Source: a virus. From it: DNA of 36,091 nucleotides. The stretch spans positions 1 through 36,091 of IMG/VR virus record IMGVR_UViG_3300025818_000076, one strand, 5' to 3'. The translations under genes and the position numbers were made by a program. Shown here piece by piece: positions 3,036 through 12,774 of this stretch (position 1 is the stretch's first letter; every line of letters starts with the position of its first letter). The notes beneath the pieces were generated by a model. The model saw nothing but the letters and a program-made list of their open reading frames with translations, was not told the origin of the DNA and made no database searches.

Positions 3036-3080
3036 AAAGATAGGCTGTACGATAATTTTTATTGTATGGTCTATCTTTTT
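3036..3080. terminator. Convergent transcription terminator hairpin
   Basis: Bases 3036-3055 pair with 3059-3078 around a 3-base loop. The stem is AAAGATAG/CTATCTTT outside and TACGATAA/TTATTGTA inside, joined by a 4-pair segment mostly of G-T wobbles, giving an unbroken 20-pair stem. On the + strand it ends in TTTTT (3076-3080), as for an intrinsic terminator. It lies 22 bases after the reductase stop codon and directly next to the stop codon of the opposing gene at 3079. It probably acts in both directions, but is better formed for the + strand. Confidence 0.8.
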
Positions 3081-3519
3081 AACGAGCATTCTTAACCATA
3101 GATGCACCAAAATACAATCCGACGATAGCGGAAAGAAGGTGAGTATCAAGTGGTGTAATCACTAAGCCCGTTAAAGCTTGCCATTTAATTGCTTCCTTTC
3201 CTTCTGTAAAGAAAAGGAAACCTGGGTTCCATTCTGTATAACCAATGTTAACAGGAATATCAGGCCAAAATACTGCTACAATCTTAGGCCAAACAATAAT
3301 TGCAAACACAGCAGAGATGGCAATGATGCGGCGAGTAACCTGAAAGCCTTTGCTTTCGTATTTACGTGCATCATTAATAGCCTTGCGTTGAGCGGATAGT
3401 CCGGTAATTGCTCTATCAAATGCTTGCTGTTTTGCTTCTTGACTTCTGCTCCACATTGTCATAAGACCAGACATAAGACCAGAGCCTAGCATTGTTATAA
3501 GTTCAAAAGGTATGCCCAT
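3079..3519 (-). CDS. Three-TM membrane protein, possible holin
   Basis: 146 residues with three hydrophobic segments: about 4-23, 63-85 and 114-141. Between the first two lies a charged, probably helical stretch (SRSQEAKQQAFDRAITG). This size and layout resemble the 3-TM holins of gene transfer agents and phages, but I see no decisive motif. It is the last gene of the - strand operon and ends on the terminator. The ATG follows the previous stop codon after one base, so translation is probably coupled. It could make the inner-membrane lesion for lysis or be another membrane protein. A second holin candidate lies at 19701-19886. Confidence 0.6.
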   Translation of the reverse strand: MGIPFELITMLGSGLMSGLMTMWSRSQEAKQQAFDRAITGLSAQRKAINDARKYESKGFQVTRRIIAISAVFAIIVWPKIVAVFWPDIPVNIGYTEWNPGFLFFTEGKEAIKWQALTGLVITPLDTHLLSAIVGLYFGASMVKNAR

Positions 3520-3831: not shown

Positions 3832-6114
3832 TTATTCACCATACAGAGATTTAAAATCTGGTTTTATTGTATAGTTAGACCCTCTAAACAACGAAGGGGC
3901 TACACCTTCTCCATAAACAAATATATCCATATCAACCTCATTCTCTCTGTTTAACAAAGCCTCAAAGTCTTGAGACAAGGCTAATAGCTCACCAGTTGTA
4001 TAGAATATATCTTCTTCCTTTGTCTTTGGATTTAGAATACCAATCTTAATCCATTTCTTCTTTCCATACATATCGACTTCATCAAGGTCTTCTGGAACAC
4101 CTTCATGGCAGCAGTCCATACCAAAGATATGAAACTCTCTGAAGCCTAGTGTATGTCCGATACCAATTGTACGCATTGCAGAGCAAGTACCGCCAGTAAT
4201 AAGTTCCTGCTCCTGTAACTCTTGCATGTCAATAAGAGCGTTTGTGTAAGCATGCCAGCCAATAATGTTAGCCCCTTTCTCAACAAGATACTTTGTAACA
4301 TCAATGTTAGTCATGCTTGCGACAAAGTACTTTACCTTTGGATGAGGATCAGCTAACAATTCTCTACGAACAATACCGTGCGTAGATGTTCCGTCAAATG
4401 GACGAGGATCAAGAATAACGCAACCCCAAGGAATGATACCATTCTCAATCAATGTATTATGAGAATGCTTAACACAGAAAACCTTTGCTCCGTGCTTCTG
4501 AAGTTCCTTAATCTTATCTAGATTTTTAACAAGAGAAGGACCAGCAGAAGCTAAGACAAGTTTACCATGATGCCAGTGGCAACGCTGTACCATGTTATCA
4601 TTGAACAACTTCATGTTTTCACGAACGTTGTTTTGAATGTTATCAGGAGGTACACAATCTCTTGGATTAACTTGAACAGGAACCTTGTGTGTATCTGGTG
4701 GATTTGGAAGGCTAAGATCATTCAGAACAACAGCAAGGTTTACATGTCCACCACCGGCTACTCTATCACCAGTAGAGATGATGAACCTACGTTGTTTACC
4801 TGTACGATCAGTACCACCTAGTTCCTTATAAATATCGTTGACGCCTAAAAACTCTGTAGGCATTTTTCCTTGTTCATCTTCTGTATAATAATCATCCAGA
4901 ACGATGACAGGAATGTTCTTACAAAGCTCATAGTCACTACGTACAGTTTCAGTAGAATGTCCACCATCAATGAAAACAAAGTCAGGCTTTACATTATACA
5001 TATTACAAAGGCTAGGATCGTTTAGAATACTTAACTTACTTTTTGAGTCGCCCTTCATTAGATAAAATGTTAAAGTCTTATTTATCTTTGCGTACTCTTT
5101 AGCAAGATCAGTTAGCTTTAGTTCAACAGACTTCTTTGTATAATGCTTCTTTACATTAAACTCTTCCTTATCTGTTTCATCCGTAGCGTCTTCAAATAGA
5201 TCAATACCAGTGTAGTGAACAGTGTCGTTAGCCTCAAAGGCAGATTGGATCATTGCACAAGCTGTATCGCCATTCCATGTGCCAATCTCTAGAATGTTCT
5301 TACGCTTATAGTGTTTGACCATAGCACACAGATCAACATACCTACGTGCCTTGAAGTTTGGATTATTTCCAGAGCCGTACTTCTTGTTACCCTTTAGATG
5401 AACAATATGATTACCTAGAGGAGATAAATCAAAAGCATCTAGTCCTTCACAGTTCGGTGTAAGATCATGTGTAACCATGCCATGAGCTTCATGTAGAATG
5501 CGAAGACGATCAAACACATAGTTATCAGCAAAGCATTGTAACTTTAGAACTTCGTCTGAATTATAGTAGTTAACATAATCAGTCATGAAGACTTCTACTA
5601 TGCCAGGATTGATATTATAGCCAATAAGAGAAGAACATGTGGCATAGGCATTCTTACGGCCTAGATAGACTATATCAGCTTCATCGTTAAATGTCTGGCT
5701 TAACAACTCTTCTGTGATAGGCTCATACGTTACACTGTCCGCATCCAACCAAATCAACCACTGTGCATTTCCACCATCACGGTCTAGAAGATAATTCATA
5801 GCCATGTGTTGAGCGTATACCTTGTGGCTAAACTTCACGGCATCTTGATAGAAGTTATACGTATTCTTTCCAGCCTTACCATCAAACTGTTTGTTACGTT
5901 CCTTAAATTCAATTAGCCGGTCATTGTCTAGTAGATCAAAGTAATGAATGTTATCGGCTTTAGGCGCGTTGTCTGGTAGAGGATAACCATCACAATAACA
6001 AAGAAGTTGAATATCCTTTGGCCAATATTCAATGAAGCTATTTAGAAAACGTTCACCGTATACATCCCAACTTTTAACTGGAAAGGATGTAACAATCGTG
6101 TATTTATTTGACAT
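3832..6114 (-). CDS. Three-domain fusion: glycosyltransferase - SAM methyltransferase - DUF115 (Maf/MptE-like)
   Basis: 760 residues in three parts. Residues 1-255 look like a nucleotide-sugar glycosyltransferase of GT-A type with a DxD-type metal site in LIWLDADSVTY (Asp124, Asp126). Residues 270-470 are a class I methyltransferase: ILEIGTWNGDTA (274-285) is the SAM-binding loop, TGIDLFED (302-309) follows, then FIDGGHS (381-387) and VLDDYY (405-410), as in the Methyltransf_24 and CmcI-like groups. Residues 515-760 match DUF115: LASAGPSLVKNL (521-532), VILDPRP (566-572) and FHIFGMDCC (661-669). DUF115 occurs in Maf proteins that glycosylate flagellin, and in archaeal MptE. The protein probably makes or modifies a surface sugar, on phage proteins or on the host envelope; the substrate cannot be read. 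It follows the other glycosyltransferase by 7 bases. Confidence 0.82.
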   Translation of the reverse strand: MSNKYTIVTSFPVKSWDVYGERFLNSFIEYWPKDIQLLCYCDGYPLPDNAPKADNIHYFDLLDNDRLIEFKERNKQFDGKAGKNTYNFYQDAVKFSHKVYAQHMAMNYLLDRDGGNAQWLIWLDADSVTYEPITEELLSQTFNDEADIVYLGRKNAYATCSSLIGYNINPGIVEVFMTDYVNYYNSDEVLKLQCFADNYVFDRLRILHEAHGMVTHDLTPNCEGLDAFDLSPLGNHIVHLKGNKKYGSGNNPNFKARRYVDLCAMVKHYKRKNILEIGTWNGDTACAMIQSAFEANDTVHYTGIDLFEDATDETDKEEFNVKKHYTKKSVELKLTDLAKEYAKINKTLTFYLMKGDSKSKLSILNDPSLCNMYNVKPDFVFIDGGHSTETVRSDYELCKNIPVIVLDDYYTEDEQGKMPTEFLGVNDIYKELGGTDRTGKQRRFIISTGDRVAGGGHVNLAVVLNDLSLPNPPDTHKVPVQVNPRDCVPPDNIQNNVRENMKLFNDNMVQRCHWHHGKLVLASAGPSLVKNLDKIKELQKHGAKVFCVKHSHNTLIENGIIPWGCVILDPRPFDGTSTHGIVRRELLADPHPKVKYFVASMTNIDVTKYLVEKGANIIGWHAYTNALIDMQELQEQELITGGTCSAMRTIGIGHTLGFREFHIFGMDCCHEGVPEDLDEVDMYGKKKWIKIGILNPKTKEEDIFYTTGELLALSQDFEALLNRENEVDMDIFVYGEGVAPSLFRGSNYTIKPDFKSLYGE

Positions 6115-6121
6115 TTATTGA

Positions 6122-6889
6122 TTAGTCCATTAAATGGTTGATGATAAAATTCTTTGGAATTGATTGTAGATAGTCAATCCAAACCTCTCCAAAGTCACAG
6201 TCCTTGTATTCCTCAAACCAAGGTCCACCCTTTGTAAAATGAATAGCCTTTGGCTTCTTTCCGTTGTTTGTTACACCAGGAACAAAGTTCCACTCTTCTG
6301 GTAAAGGACCAATAGCTTCATCTTTAGTCCATTTAAACTTATGAAGATGGGAACCGTTAGAATTATTTACTGTGATATGATCTAGTTTCTGTACATCAGG
6401 ATGGCTCAGATTGAACATCATTAATGATGACCAAAGCTTCTTTGTGTAACGAGTTTGTAAAACGTTATCCATTTTGTATCGTTCTTTTTCATCTGGAATC
6501 CAGTTAAACTTTACACACATTACAGAATAACGATCATCAGCTAATTCAAATAGCTTTTTGATGTTTTCAAGAAACACAACATCACCATCAACAAAGATAG
6601 CCCAGCCATCCTTTCCTTGTTGCCTACAGATTTCAGGTACTAGAAATCTACTAAAGGAAAACTCAGTAGAGAAAGGCTTACTGTCGATAGTATCGAAGTA
6701 CTGTCCAGTCTCTGAAATAAAAGCTTTACGATAGTAGAGTTTTTGTTGTTGAAGGTTTTTCTTATTGATAAAGTCTACCGATACATTATCGTCACCTACT
6801 TTTAGATTTGAGATAATACTGTATTTGCAGACAATAGAAGCCAGGGCTTCACGAGGGTCATAACCCACGAAGACATGCTTGTTTGACAT
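6122..6889 (-). CDS. GT8-like nucleotide-sugar glycosyltransferase
   Basis: 255 residues. The N-terminus HVFVGYDPREALA is typical of GT-A nucleotide-diphospho-sugar transferases of the glycogenin/LPS (GT8-like) type. Asp101-Gly-Asp103 in WAIFVDGDVVFLEN is the DxD site that holds the metal and nucleotide sugar. KLWSSLMMFNLSHPD (151-165) and the C-terminal IHFTKGGPWFEE (216-227), with its conserved His, complete the pattern. No signal peptide or membrane segment, so it should act in the host cytoplasm. It is followed after 7 bases by the GT-methyltransferase-DUF115 fusion and probably works with it. Both proteins begin with MSNK. The acceptor is unknown. Confidence 0.8.
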   Translation of the reverse strand: MSNKHVFVGYDPREALASIVCKYSIISNLKVGDDNVSVDFINKKNLQQQKLYYRKAFISETGQYFDTIDSKPFSTEFSFSRFLVPEICRQQGKDGWAIFVDGDVVFLENIKKLFELADDRYSVMCVKFNWIPDEKERYKMDNVLQTRYTKKLWSSLMMFNLSHPDVQKLDHITVNNSNGSHLHKFKWTKDEAIGPLPEEWNFVPGVTNNGKKPKAIHFTKGGPWFEEYKDCDFGEVWIDYLQSIPKNFIINHLMD

Positions 6890-6972: not shown

Positions 6973-9900
6973 TTAATCTCTTGTAAGAAGTCCTAGCCTA
7001 CGTAGAGTAGCATCCTCTGCCATTGGTCGTGCATTCTTTCTTATGCTACGCATGGCTACACCCTTATCTGTTTGACCCAGAAGTTCTGTAGCAATTCTAT
7101 TTCTTAGGGCTTCACTTTGAATATTAATAATTAAGTCTGGACGTTTTTCAGTTGCAGCCTCTCTATTAAGATCAGCTATTTCTTTATAAATATCCCGAAC
7201 AATATCAGTTTGTTTTTTATAGTTTGACATATCACCCTTAGTATATTCCAGGTTAGCTAGATTGATATGCTTTGCAAGTTGTGAATAATAATAATCTTGA
7301 ATACCCTTTGTTTCACCTTGTAAGAATTTATAATATTGCCGTTGTTGCCTAGCTTCTGCAACAGACTTAGGAGTAAAGCCAAAAGCTTTAGCAAGGTTTT
7401 CAAGTGTTCCAATTTCTTTAGAAGGCATTAATACTCTGCCTTGAGTTGTACGTACTGGTTTATCAAGGAATTGAGTAGCGGCTGCATCGTAGGCATTTCT
7501 AATACCAACGGGTAGGAAAGCAGTTGCAAATTCAACAGCATTAAATTCTTTTTGTTTTAATGCTTCAAGTGCCTTACGACCGGCATCAATAACAACGCTT
7601 CCAGTTGGTCCATATGCAACGGATAGATCACCAGCCATAAGATCAAATGGAATAACTTCACCAACACCTACACGGCGTCTAAGGTCAATGCCGGTAAGTT
7701 GTCCAAATACACCGCTCATTAAGATGTCGTTAGCTACGCCTGTAATTCCAAGGCTAGCCAAGGTTTGTCTCATTCCGGTTTCAAGATCAAACTCATAGTC
7801 ACTTACTGCTTTAGACAGCATTTGGAGAAGTTGTTTCATATTCTCCATCCAAGGAAGTCCCATAGCTCCTGCAAAGAAAAGCATACTTAGAACCATAGAA
7901 CCTAGTAATGCGCTTCCTAGTTTCTTATCTACTTTTGCAATTGATAGTGCTTGAGCATACAAACCAACATAGTTAATAACATAAGGCATAAACTGTGTAG
8001 CAATATTCCAAAATCCTTTATGGAATAGCTCTGGCCTGTTTTCCTTACTAATTAGAAACTGTGTCTTCATAACCATCATTTCAGCGGCTTGAGTTGGAGT
8101 TGTCTTACGAGTAGAATACACAGTGTATTTTGAATAATCATCAAGCTTCTTGAGATTACTTGGAGATTTCTTTGCTAGTCTGTATGTCGTTAAGGCAGTT
8201 GTGATACGGTTAATTTGCTCTATCGCACCAAACATGAAAGAACTAGCTTCTAAAATTTTTGCACCAGCTTGAGCAGCGTTAGGTGGTAATCTATTATTTA
8301 ACTCTCCTAATGTTCTTGCTAGATTGGCTCCAGAGTCGATACTTGTTACAGCTTGAATAATGCCACGAGAGTGAAGATCACGTAGCATGTTCCATTCATC
8401 TTGACTAATTTTACCTTTTACTTGTTGAGGAACTGTTGGGCTTTCAAAATTAAAACCATAAGTATCTAAACGATCCTTAGAAAGCTTAAATAAAAGTCTA
8501 GCATCGTTCATTGCTTTTAGTAGTTCTCTTGTTGAGCCTTTTCCAACAACAACTTTTAGAACTGGAAGAGTAGCAACAAATAGCTGTGTTAAGTTAACAA
8601 TAGCAGAACTAAAGTTCATGCCAATTGTATAATGGAATGTTAGTCCTTTTAAAACAGAACCAGCATCAGCAGGATCATTGATATTTTCAACTAGCTTTTC
8701 AGCAGTTTTAACTAGTTTATGGTTTTCTCCTAGTTCTTCTGCAAGCTTATTTAAAGCTGTTCTCATAGGACGATAATATTCAAGGTTTGAGGCAGTATCT
8801 GAACCTGTACGAATATAATTACTTAAAGAATATGCAAGATAATTATCAGCAGTAGCAGGAGTATAATAACCATTAACGACATTTTTAGCTTCTCTAGTTT
8901 CAAGAAACTTGTTGAAGCCATCTGTAGTAATTGCAGTTTCTAACTGTCCAATAAATTCTTTTACTTGATCTTTATCTTTGTTATATCCAAAAGCATCTGC
9001 CAACCTTTGAAGTATACCAATATCCTCAACATCTAATTTTTTTAGAATATCTTTCTTAGTTTCTACTCTGGTGCCTATTTCAGATATTGTATATCTTTTT
9101 GAATCAGCATAAATACCACTTTCTTTTAGTTGTTTTAATCGTTCATTTAGTCTCTTTCTTTGATCTGAAATAAACCGAGGAGTAAAATCGCTATCTAAAA
9201 TTCTTGGAGTACTGGTTTCATAGTGAATAATCTTTTTAAGTTTATTATCATAGACTTTAAAGAAAAAATCTCCTTGACGTTGGCGAGGAATATAATATGG
9301 ATTACGTGTTTTTGTTGTTTCGTAATCATTAATAAATTTAATAATATTAAGCTGAGATATTACATTATCTATTAAAAGATTTTCTCTACTTCCTTTTTTA
9401 AATGTATCTTTATTATCATCTTTAAATTTAGTTAAAATTTGAGTTGCTAATTGATTATTATTTAAATCTTTTGTATATGATTCTAAATCCATAATATTAA
9501 CAGTGATTGGATTTTTATTTCCTCTTGGAATAATTTCAAAATTTAAAGTAGAAAGAGGAACTAATTTTGAAAGATCATTTAGATACATACGAACTGACTG
9601 TCTAATCTTATCATTAAGAACAGTCATTGTATCTCCCTGTGCCTCTTTAATATTTCCATATAGAGGAGCTTTTTGTAAGAAGAAGCGAATGAAGCCACGA
9701 CCAACCGTTTCATACATACGGTCAAATCCTCGTCTTGCTTCATTATATTTATTAAAAAGCTTTTTAGGTAGGCGAATGGTTCCAGGCTGAACATTAAGAC
9801 TAGCTAGAATAGTTCTGTAGTGATCTGCATCAATATCCGTAGATACTTCATTTGTTTCAGGATCAATCGTAGCAACTGGTTCTGGAGCAATAGTTAGAAT

Positions 9901-12774
9901 TGCATCTCCACTTTCTTTATCTACAGTTAATTTAACTTGTTTAGAAGTACCAAGAGCATCAAGAATAACAGCAAACTTACTAATTATCTTCTGTTCTTCA
10001 CCAGTTGTTTTAGTAAAGAAATCTCTTAAACCTTGAAAACCAAATATATTCTTTTGTTCACGACTTGCTCGTCTTCCTACTAATAAAATATCATAAAATT
10101 TTCTAAATGCTGGAACTTTTTCTGCAATTCTAGTTGGTAGAGTAAGGCTCCATGCATTTGACCATAGAGTTTTACCGCTCTTTGCTAAATCTAAACCTTC
10201 ATAATATTCTTTTAATTGTGGTGCCGCTGCTGCTATTTCTTCTTCAGTTACTAATTCTGGAGAAAAGAATAGTTTATTAGCTGCGTCTTCAATATCGGTT
10301 AAATATATATCTTTGATATTATTTTGATTTAAGTCTTGAGATACAGGTTGAGCAGGATCAAGAACCTCTGATACAGACTGCATAGTTTTAATTTCATCAA
10401 CTAGCTGTTCTTCAGAATCAGGGTCTTCTAGTAATTTAATTTTTTCTTTATCAACAAAAGCTTGTAAATCAACATCAAGAATTATATCACCAGGAGCTTT
10501 AATCTTCTCTGGAAGAATAGAAACATTTGCATCATTAAGAGCAAACTTTGTATTGATGTTATCAATTCGCTGTTGTCTTTCTGGGCTTTGGCTGTCCATT
10601 TCAAAGTAAGGAGTAGGAATTACAACATCGTTTTCTCTACTAGTTCTTTTCCAAATACCAGATTTAAAAATATTCTCCATACGTTTTAAACGATCTTGAA
10701 TATTCTTCGACGCATTCTTTTGTTGTTCAGTTTGTTGAGTATTTGTAGCGTCATTGACAGCTTGTTGTTCTTCAATAAGTTTCTGTGTTTCTTTTAACTC
10801 AGTATACTCATTGGCAATATCTTGTGCAGATGCAAATGGTTTACCAGTACGATCATTCTGTAATCCAACTCGTTTAAGAACACCATCAAGAGAAGTCTTG
10901 ATGCGATTAGGAAGAATGAAAGGTCTTTCTTTTTCTAGAATTTGTTTTTCTCTAGCATCTAAACGTTGAGCTAGATAATCTTGATATAATCCCTCACCAA
11001 GACGATATGTAAGTTGTCCAATTAGATTTGGAATTTGATCTTCTGAAATATTATTTTGTTCTGCAAATGTTCTAGCTTGCCCTTCTGTTGTTATGTAACT
11101 TGGAACAAAACCAGCTTGTTTTATATCAGTATATGTTATATCTTCTGGAGCAAGCTGTCTTTGACGAGTGGCTTGCATGTGCCATTCTGGAGATGGCTTA
11201 TCCGTAGCTGCATAACGATACCTTTGTTGTTCTTCTTCTACAGCTTGAATTTGTCTTTGAAGTCTAGGAGCAGAACGCCCATCAGCAGTTTTTAATTGTC
11301 TTGTTAGCTCACCCTTTAATTGGCCTAAATCATAATATGTTTTTCTATCTTTCTCTTTATTTAGAGAAGCTTGATATTCAATATTAAATTCTTCTTCTGC
11401 TTTAGCAGTCCAATCTAAAAGATTTTTAGAACCTTTCTTTGGTTCGACATAGCCTTCTTTAATAAGATATTCCGTTAAAGCTTCCTTGCTTTTCTTGTTT
11501 TCAAAACCAAAAATATCATCAAAATTCTTTTTAACAATCCAATTATCTTTTTTAATTTCACTTGGATTTACCCAATTAAGAATACGATCAAGATATGGTT
11601 TAGCTTTATCACCACCAGCGGATAAATCTCTAAGAACTGTATTAAGTTCATCATCTGCTGAAATACTATCAACGAATTTAAGTTGAGCCGTGGCAGAACC
11701 CATACCACGAACTTCTTCTGAAACAGGATTTTCTACAGTAGTTTCTCTGGCTTCAGTATCTTCCTGTCCCTTATTACGAGACATTAAACCAAGGCCAATT
11801 TCAAAAGTACCGCCTGGAATTTCTGCTACACCTTCAAGAAGAATTTCACCTAGTTTAACATCTTGACCAGATGCAATCTGTGCAGCAAATTCACCAGCAC
11901 CTCCAAGAGTAGGCTGAATAACAAGAGCTTCCGTACCAATAGCAGCGGGTACTTTAAGTTTAGAATATGTTCTTCCTGCTTCTTCCGCTGCCTTTTTTGA
12001 CCTTTGAACTGCACCTACTAATTTACCAGCAAAACCAACAGAAAGAGCATCAACGGCAGCAATTGGAATACCACGTTTAACAGCAAAGGCTTCAAACTCA
12101 GCCATTCTGTCTTCATCTTTAAGAAGGTCTGCTACTAATTTATCATCTTTTAAAGGAGATTGCTTTCCTGTTTGTTCTACAAGATATTCATTCATAGCCT
12201 CAAGAGTAGAAGCACCTACTTCTGTTGCTAAACTACCAAGACCAGCTACAGAGGCTAAGGCAACAGGACCAGCACCACCAATTGCAGCTAAAGCTGTTGC
12301 GCCTAAAGCTGGAGCAAACGTAGCAAAGGATTCACCAACAACAGTTCCAATAGCTTTTAGGCCAGCGGTTGTTGTAGCTGCATCCCAAAACTCTCCAACG
12401 CTTTCAGCAGTACCAAGAGCGGTGATAGCTTCTTCTACTTCTTTACTGTAAGGAACCTGAGCTAAATAGTTTTGATAATCTTGAATATCTTTTGCAGCAT
12501 TTTCTGGATTGTCAAAACCAAGGCGAACTTGAGCAACATTAGCCATTTCTCCAAGGCGATAGAAACCTCGTGCAGCCCAATCAGGAAGGGATGAGAATGG
12601 ATGATCAGGATTTTCTTGAGCGGCTTTTAAGCCAGAATCTTCATAAGGTAAATAAATATCATTTACATAAAAGTCTCTTTTTTCTTGAGTCTCGTCATAA
12701 AAAGATGGAATATCAACGGCTATATCTCTAACAGTACCGTCATCATTTTGAACTGAATAAGTTCTTTCAACCAT
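6973..12774 (-). CDS. Giant internal virion (ejection-type) protein
   Basis: 1933 residues, the longest gene. The layout fits the large internal proteins of podoviruses that leave the capsid with the DNA and help it cross the host envelope. Visible: an Ala/Gly-rich hydrophobic region at about 130-200 (ALGATALAAIGGAGPVALAS); a long charged coiled region rich in Gln, Glu and Lys at about 350-800; hydrophobic segments near 1380-1410 and 1615-1640; a helical, Arg-rich C-terminus. The stretch near 1780 (KAFGFTPKSVAEARQQRQYY) resembles C-terminal parts of PLxRFG-type phage proteins. I found no catalytic motif for a peptidoglycan enzyme or protease. It follows the 688-residue internal protein by 7 bases. 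Confidence 0.75.
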   Translation of the reverse strand: MVERTYSVQNDDGTVRDIAVDIPSFYDETQEKRDFYVNDIYLPYEDSGLKAAQENPDHPFSSLPDWAARGFYRLGEMANVAQVRLGFDNPENAAKDIQDYQNYLAQVPYSKEVEEAITALGTAESVGEFWDAATTTAGLKAIGTVVGESFATFAPALGATALAAIGGAGPVALASVAGLGSLATEVGASTLEAMNEYLVEQTGKQSPLKDDKLVADLLKDEDRMAEFEAFAVKRGIPIAAVDALSVGFAGKLVGAVQRSKKAAEEAGRTYSKLKVPAAIGTEALVIQPTLGGAGEFAAQIASGQDVKLGEILLEGVAEIPGGTFEIGLGLMSRNKGQEDTEARETTVENPVSEEVRGMGSATAQLKFVDSISADDELNTVLRDLSAGGDKAKPYLDRILNWVNPSEIKKDNWIVKKNFDDIFGFENKKSKEALTEYLIKEGYVEPKKGSKNLLDWTAKAEEEFNIEYQASLNKEKDRKTYYDLGQLKGELTRQLKTADGRSAPRLQRQIQAVEEEQQRYRYAATDKPSPEWHMQATRQRQLAPEDITYTDIKQAGFVPSYITTEGQARTFAEQNNISEDQIPNLIGQLTYRLGEGLYQDYLAQRLDAREKQILEKERPFILPNRIKTSLDGVLKRVGLQNDRTGKPFASAQDIANEYTELKETQKLIEEQQAVNDATNTQQTEQQKNASKNIQDRLKRMENIFKSGIWKRTSRENDVVIPTPYFEMDSQSPERQQRIDNINTKFALNDANVSILPEKIKAPGDIILDVDLQAFVDKEKIKLLEDPDSEEQLVDEIKTMQSVSEVLDPAQPVSQDLNQNNIKDIYLTDIEDAANKLFFSPELVTEEEIAAAAPQLKEYYEGLDLAKSGKTLWSNAWSLTLPTRIAEKVPAFRKFYDILLVGRRASREQKNIFGFQGLRDFFTKTTGEEQKIISKFAVILDALGTSKQVKLTVDKESGDAILTIAPEPVATIDPETNEVSTDIDADHYRTILASLNVQPGTIRLPKKLFNKYNEARRGFDRMYETVGRGFIRFFLQKAPLYGNIKEAQGDTMTVLNDKIRQSVRMYLNDLSKLVPLSTLNFEIIPRGNKNPITVNIMDLESYTKDLNNNQLATQILTKFKDDNKDTFKKGSRENLLIDNVISQLNIIKFINDYETTKTRNPYYIPRQRQGDFFFKVYDNKLKKIIHYETSTPRILDSDFTPRFISDQRKRLNERLKQLKESGIYADSKRYTISEIGTRVETKKDILKKLDVEDIGILQRLADAFGYNKDKDQVKEFIGQLETAITTDGFNKFLETREAKNVVNGYYTPATADNYLAYSLSNYIRTGSDTASNLEYYRPMRTALNKLAEELGENHKLVKTAEKLVENINDPADAGSVLKGLTFHYTIGMNFSSAIVNLTQLFVATLPVLKVVVGKGSTRELLKAMNDARLLFKLSKDRLDTYGFNFESPTVPQQVKGKISQDEWNMLRDLHSRGIIQAVTSIDSGANLARTLGELNNRLPPNAAQAGAKILEASSFMFGAIEQINRITTALTTYRLAKKSPSNLKKLDDYSKYTVYSTRKTTPTQAAEMMVMKTQFLISKENRPELFHKGFWNIATQFMPYVINYVGLYAQALSIAKVDKKLGSALLGSMVLSMLFFAGAMGLPWMENMKQLLQMLSKAVSDYEFDLETGMRQTLASLGITGVANDILMSGVFGQLTGIDLRRRVGVGEVIPFDLMAGDLSVAYGPTGSVVIDAGRKALEALKQKEFNAVEFATAFLPVGIRNAYDAAATQFLDKPVRTTQGRVLMPSKEIGTLENLAKAFGFTPKSVAEARQQRQYYKFLQGETKGIQDYYYSQLAKHINLANLEYTKGDMSNYKKQTDIVRDIYKEIADLNREAATEKRPDLIINIQSEALRNRIATELLGQTDKGVAMRSIRKNARPMAEDATLRRLGLLTRD

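Follow-up and report, generated by a model that had tools for sequence, protein, structure and literature searches.

An uncultured marine phage joins two putative sugar-transferring enzymes and a predicted methyl-adding enzyme in one protein. The three-part fusion is widespread among uncultured marine phages, but none of 50,697 phage records has it. The gene lies in a virus record of 36,091 bases, which we analysed as a whole and call the window. Residues of the active-site type are kept in all three domains. A sequence-only reading of this DNA had suggested that the protein could build a methylated sugar on virion proteins or host surface glycans, and among possible functions this class has the best support. 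Our analysis widens that reading by a GT8-like partner, repeated loss of the methyltransferase and a phage-encoded GDP-mannose 4,6-dehydratase (Gmd).

Gene and domain layout

The fusion ORF lies on the minus strand, begins with an ATG at 6114, stops at 3832-3834 and encodes 760 residues. A three-part protein of this length with a set of named motifs had been proposed from the letters of the DNA, and we confirmed both the ORF and the position of every motif: DAD at residues 124-126, ILEIGTWNG at 274-282, FIDGGHS at 381-387, GPSL at 525-528 and FGMD at 664-667. The protein recurs over its whole length in other IMG/VR contigs at 64-100% identity, so the frame is not a chance one. Distant relatives share about 30-43% identity, and the DxD, HxKG, LDPR and STHG motifs stay unchanged across all 62 diverse sequences compared. 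The features of the locus in the window are as follows.

3079..3519, minus strand: 146-aa membrane-type protein, downstream of the fusion (phrog_38283)
3832..6114, minus strand: fusion gene, GT-A + methyltransferase + DUF115, kept at full length in IMG/VR contigs
3835..4692, minus strand: DUF115/MptE-like domain, residues 475-760 (Pfam core 492-670), by Pfam, Foldseek and PDB profile search
4705..5343, minus strand: predicted methyltransferase domain, residues 258-470, by Pfam, Foldseek and conservation
5368..6114, minus strand: N domain, predicted GT-A-fold glycosyltransferase, residues 1-249, by Foldseek and invariant residues
5389-5400, minus strand: HxKG, residues 239-242, with invariant H239, K241 and G242
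5737-5745, minus strand: DxD, residues 124-126, with invariant D124 and D126
6122..6889, minus strand: GT8-like glycosyltransferase, 255 aa (phrog_28018), ending 7 bp before the fusion start
6973..12774, minus strand: 1933-aa protein, probable internal/ejection virion protein (unnamed PHROGs)

Structure model and the three domains

The AlphaFold2 model of the fusion was built on an alignment containing 62 diverse relatives and has a mean pLDDT of 89.7. It replaced an earlier model from five close homologues, which at a pLDDT of 43.9 was useless. The model consists of well-folded domains on linkers, with a dip in confidence at residues 247-251, and its pTM of 0.58 means that the mutual arrangement of the domains is not fixed. 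Foldseek against the PDB returned Maf (5mu5) as the top match, together with GT-A enzymes of the GT6 family, glycogenin, TomG, TrmR and MptE (8sd5); matches were allotted to the thirds of the protein by fold type. A single-sequence search of the PDB with the protein gave a designed protein as its sole match.

The N domain is modelled as a GT-A fold of the GT6/glycogenin-like kind. No Pfam family matched residues 1-250, and the GT-A call made from the sequence is borne out by structure only: Foldseek matched BoGT6a (TM-score 0.57 on target), glycogenin (0.50-0.53) and alpha-1,3-GalT. A profile search of the PDB with this domain gave nothing significant, the best match being domain 1 of the chlorovirus protein A064R (2p6w, E 0.37). 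Residues D91, K98, W122, D124, D126, D197, H239, K241 and G242 are invariant (62/62), and these include a DxD and a C-terminal histidine of the metal type (D124, D126, H239).

Both Pfam and fold agree with the proposed SAM methyltransferase. Methyltransf_24 (PF13578) matches at 275-400 with an E-value of 6.6e-10 (40.3 bits against a curated cut-off of 26.3), and Foldseek matches this fold to the O-methyltransferases TomG and TrmR. In the SAM loop, ExGTxxG, E276 and G278 are kept in 56 of the 57 rows that have a methyltransferase. D383, D407 and D408 are kept in 53-55 of the 56-57 rows with a residue there, a few members lacking D383; they are candidates for a metal-binding set, which we take to be like the D...DD metal site of COMT-type and macrocin-type O-methyltransferases. 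Sequence and model together point to a COMT-type methyltransferase of the Methyltransf_24 family. A methyltransferase profile from close relatives matched nothing in the PDB. The domain also matches phrog_2675, and we discarded the label of that group, DNA methyltransferase, as one of convenience for a shared Rossmann domain.

For the C-terminal part, the DUF115 assignment and its kinship to Maf and MptE are upheld by PF01973, 5mu5 and 8sd5. PF01973 (MptE-like, the former DUF115) matches at 492-670 (E 1.1e-22, 81.1 bits against a cut-off of 34.6) and is found in 11 of 11 diverse members. A PDB profile search with this part found Maf (5mu5, E 9e-4), Foldseek found MptE (8sd5) with a TM-score of 0.68 on target, and Maf ranks over MptE in both the profile and the fold searches. 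Invariant positions among the 62 sequences are K549-H550, L568-R571 (LDPR), S577-G580 (STHG), R583, G641-G642, R648, D667 and Q715-D716. The sole NCBIfam match, the full-length Maf/PseD profile NF050051, scores 20.6 bits, far under its cut-off of 670.

The GT8-like partner and its surroundings

The gene directly upstream encodes a GT8-like enzyme (PF01501, E 1.1e-5; phrog_28018, E 4e-61) in which D101, D103, H217 and G221 are invariant in 110 of 110 sequences, leaving the DxD and His motifs intact. It is directly upstream in 74 of the 77 three-part loci that are not at a contig edge; in the remaining three it has a small overlap with the fusion or is no more than one gene away. The same placement is seen at 18 of 20 non-edge two-part loci. 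In one sub-clade (L008-L011) the fusion has a second, diverged GT8-like gene on its downstream side (L010:8961-9695).

The main genes of the window, from 3079 to about 35,400, form one minus-strand block with structural genes, and the fusion and its GT8-like partner share this strand, flanked by the ejection-type protein and the holin-like gene. The 1933-aa protein matches unnamed PHROGs only, and the same neighbour (cluster c5) is present at 18 of 61 representative loci. A GTA_holin_3TM protein (c7, PF11351) takes the place of the 146-aa membrane-type protein in relatives. One side of the gene pair is occupied by RNR and/or the long ejection-type protein, and in many relatives genes for the terminase small subunit, a holin-like protein, a 2OG-Fe(II) oxygenase or Hsp20 lie near the pair. 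Both the oxygenase and Hsp20 are found repeatedly around the cassette (L056:4432-4995; L121:1797-2222), and a protein hydroxylase beside glycosyltransferases could prepare acceptor residues. By portal and terminase, the nearest isolates, none above about 40% identity, are HTVC023P, HTVC027P, DSL-LC04 and CRP-901/902.

Candidate sugar donor genes

IMG/VR record 3300035070_001240 (59,141 bases) encodes a fusion protein that by eye is three residues off that of the window, and it also encodes a GDP-mannose 4,6-dehydratase (PF16363, E 1e-105).

L206:4805-5902 (record G001, 24.8-25.9 kb): Gmd gene, near terminase genes in a marine phage of about 59 kb that is almost identical to the window

Gmd occurs in 9 of 32 related records; by tblastn, 225 of the 50,697 phage records have any match and 86 a match to most of the protein, and the comparison of 9/32 with 225/50,697 is a rough one, the two sets differing in sampling and relatedness. 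Most related records lack Gmd, near-full-size ones (58.9-59.1 kb) among them, so it is not required. All its occurrences are in methyltransferase-bearing records (9/21, against 0/11 of those without; Fisher p 0.013), and we claim no link between the two genes since eight of the eleven methyltransferase-less records look like one clade. A CMP-sugar synthetase was not found in the 32 related records, nor was a further epimerase; the Maf-like domain would thus need a CMP-sugar from the host, or another donor. Next to Gmd is a 244-aa ORF (L206:4129-4860) that by eye resembles a sulfotransferase but has no Pfam match; we do not count it as evidence.

Distribution and domain variants

Wider scans returned at least 575 relatives of the N domain and 355 of the DUF115 part, of which 80 each were kept. 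After profile annotation and removal of duplicates, the fetched loci hold at least 81 distinct three-part proteins, at least 23 with GT-A and DUF115 and no recognised methyltransferase, at least 3 with GT-A and methyltransferase, and at least 9 N-domain proteins, part of the shorter forms being cut by contig ends. One of the GT-A + methyltransferase proteins is complete at 455 aa (L119). The DUF115 tree requires four changes in the presence of the methyltransferase, each forced by well-supported branches, and the methyltransferase-less L140 and L173 are nested deep among bearers of the domain. The methyltransferase has therefore been lost more than once, with the outer domains retained. A divergent branch of about 660-725 aa (L092-L099) has the N and DUF115 parts, with a stretch of about 140 residues without assignment in the methyltransferase's place. 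Within the clade of the two-part GT-A + DUF115 gene, that gene is followed by a protein of about 302-304 aa (L203:8833-9747; L056:1627-2532), which has no match in Pfam or NCBIfam.

Searched with four different queries, the 50,697 phage records gave no match to the methyltransferase-DUF115 part; the N domain alone is present there, in an uncultured podovirus and in Mosig EXVC030M, a Pelagibacter phage. The sequence-only reading had taken such a fusion to be new for a phage, which holds for these records but not for uncultured marine phages. A metagenome protein of an uncultured Caudovirales member, A0A6J7X5Q0 (BFVD/UniProt, 714 aa), aligns with the fusion over its whole length (763 columns, 31% identity, E 2e-67). 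It is named as a methyltransferase-domain protein, and by its sequence most likely has the same three parts; other MptE-like proteins exist in BFVD. The possibility had also been raised that the fusion is common and already characterised. It is common, but as far as the literature could be searched we found no paper characterising it.

A genome scan with the full-length profile found no bacterial source of the fusion. A scan with DUF115, which reaches close relatives of the phage motifs only, found one locus in 84,980 bacterial and archaeal species (L203, PANU01000007.1, Flavobacteriaceae MAG SAT25). We rejected this locus as bacterial because an ejection-type protein, RNR and a GT8-like gene are on the same contig; it is a phage contig that looks mis-binned.

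Comparison with known systems

Chlorovirus PBCV-1 encodes A064R, a 638-aa protein in which two rhamnosyltransferases and a 2-O-methyltransferase finish the capsid glycan, as well as a GMD, A118R (PMC9614988; PMC7826918); it is a precedent for a chain of this kind being functional. Like A064R, the phage fusion is one soluble viral protein that by fold unites a class-I methyltransferase with a GT-A domain at its N-terminus; its DUF115 part would be the second glycosyltransferase, and some related phages resemble PBCV-1 in having a GMD gene. The domain order differs, however, being GT-GT-MT in A064R and GT-MT-DUF115 in the phage. The second glycosyltransferase of A064R is of an unrelated family rather than DUF115, and its virus infects algae and modifies an N-glycan. 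The domain 1 match at E 0.37 is not significant, and no significant sequence similarity links A064R with the fusion across the three domains. The fusion may work like A064R by analogy, yet it is no member of the A064R family.

The central domain of Maf has been described as sialyltransferase-like (PMC11339370). The fusion shares the DUF115 core of Maf by profile and fold (5mu5; PF01973/MAF_flag10), but GT-A and methyltransferase domains replace the N- and C-terminal domains of Maf. Its C-terminus is DUF115 itself, without a helical C-terminal domain, so it departs from the three-domain Maf layout, and the phage family has invariant motifs of its own (KH, LDPR, STHG, QD). Maf enzymes transfer a nonulosonic acid to Ser/Thr, and no CMP-sugar synthetase was found among the 32 related records. 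The fusion thus holds a Maf-like domain and falls outside the definition of Maf. Archaeal MptE (8sd5), a 6-hydroxymethylpterin pyrophosphokinase, has the same Pfam family and fold as the DUF115 part; MptE is a single-domain pterin kinase, whereas the phage domain is fused to a glycosyltransferase in a setting of glycan genes.

Mosig EXVC030M carries a stand-alone homologue of the N domain beside a GT8-like gene (genes 00186-00191), in a run that also holds two putative methyltransferases and a putative sulfotransferase. A stand-alone N protein near a stand-alone GT8-like gene is found in other phages too. Mosig differs in that these are separate genes, no DUF115 was found, and the phage is a 141-kb member of the Kyanoviridae. 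Since the N part, the GT8 partner and methyltransferases exist there as stand-alone versions, the fusion has the look of a glycan cassette condensed into one protein.

Proposed function and alternatives

We give a probability of about 0.5 to the reading that the fusion is a glycan-assembly enzyme with three activities, making a methyl-capped glycan on a virion acceptor, by analogy with A064R. The domain folds, the conserved residues of active-site type, the constant pairing with the GT8-like gene, the Mosig cassette, the Gmd gene of the near-identical phage and the place of the pair among the structural genes speak for it. The fusion would be switched on together with the late genes, being the second of two genes in a glycosylation cassette. 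One sugar would be added by its DUF115 (Maf-like) domain, one by its GT-A domain and a third by the separate GT8-like protein, and the methyltransferase domain would O-methylate one of the sugars in the product, probably capping it. Some of these phages would supply one donor themselves through GDP-mannose 4,6-dehydratase, as GDP-4-keto-6-deoxymannose or the compounds formed by its reduction. As acceptor, a virion protein synthesised concurrently is the most likely. We infer catalysis, donors, linkage, order of steps and acceptor, the virion target from gene position alone, and host-surface glycans fit nearly as well. More tentative is the full scheme of a phage-encoded mini-pathway, in which the Maf-like domain starts the glycan on a virion protein, the GT-A and GT8-like enzymes extend it and the fused methyltransferase caps it.

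A possible alternative, which we would hold with no great conviction, is that late in infection the same enzyme remodels a polysaccharide of the host surface (LPS, capsule or exopolysaccharide), against superinfection or re-adsorption of progeny to debris. The folds and the sugar-nucleotide gene fit this equally. Bacteroidota DUF115 genes adjoin GT2-like and sugar-metabolism-like genes (neighbours named by eye), which speaks for a glycan role under either reading, and the putative sulfotransferase of the Mosig cassette also points to the host surface. Against it, a place within the late structural/lysis block is late for superinfection exclusion, and an unsystematic look directly beside the gene pair recognised no membrane-anchored or polymerase-type partner.

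The domains are unlikely to be remnants, with one or more inactive and the protein a scaffold only. Repeated loss of the methyltransferase and the few members without D383 would suit such decay, but the GT-A and DUF115 motifs are invariant in 62/62, and the methyltransferase residues persist at the frequencies given above wherever the domain is present.

Glycosylation of DNA is known from phages, and the fusion might instead glycosylate or methylate phage DNA to give hypermodified bases. The phrog_2675 match (E 5e-7) and the 2OG-Fe(II) oxygenases near the cassette of some relatives speak for this. The 59-kb relative, however, has ThyX only and lacks the thymidylate-synthase/hydroxymethylase family PF00303, for which reason we set DNA hypermodification aside as improbable. 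Moreover, the methyltransferase fold matches metal-dependent O-methyltransferases of small molecules and tRNA, and the 2OG enzymes match PF13640, which is no known base-hydroxylase family.

That the DUF115 part is a pterin pyrophosphokinase and the fusion makes a modified cofactor instead of a glycan, as the Pfam name and the MptE match could suggest, is very hard to credit for a domain fused to GT-A, adjoined by a GT8-like gene wherever testable, closer to Maf in both searches and matched in NCBIfam solely by the flagellin-modification protein PseD; nor did we notice a pterin gene in the neighbourhood.

Implications

To our knowledge, few phages glycosylate their own virions, and those that do use scattered single glycosyltransferases. 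If the glycan-assembly reading is true, a small set of enzymes for making a methylated glycan, missing from every phage record we searched, would be present in hundreds of uncultured ocean phages. With capping on the virion, this would be the equivalent, in viruses of prokaryotes, of the way chloroviruses glycosylate their capsids, encoded by genomes of about 60 kb and in some cases with a phage-made 6-deoxy sugar. DUF115 would gain a new role beyond flagella and pterin synthesis. Viral glycan assembly could be studied conveniently in this one protein, and nature already supplies forms with and without the methyltransferase for comparison. The fusion would also suggest an explanation, open to testing, for why these phages may evade recognition or differ in their adsorption.
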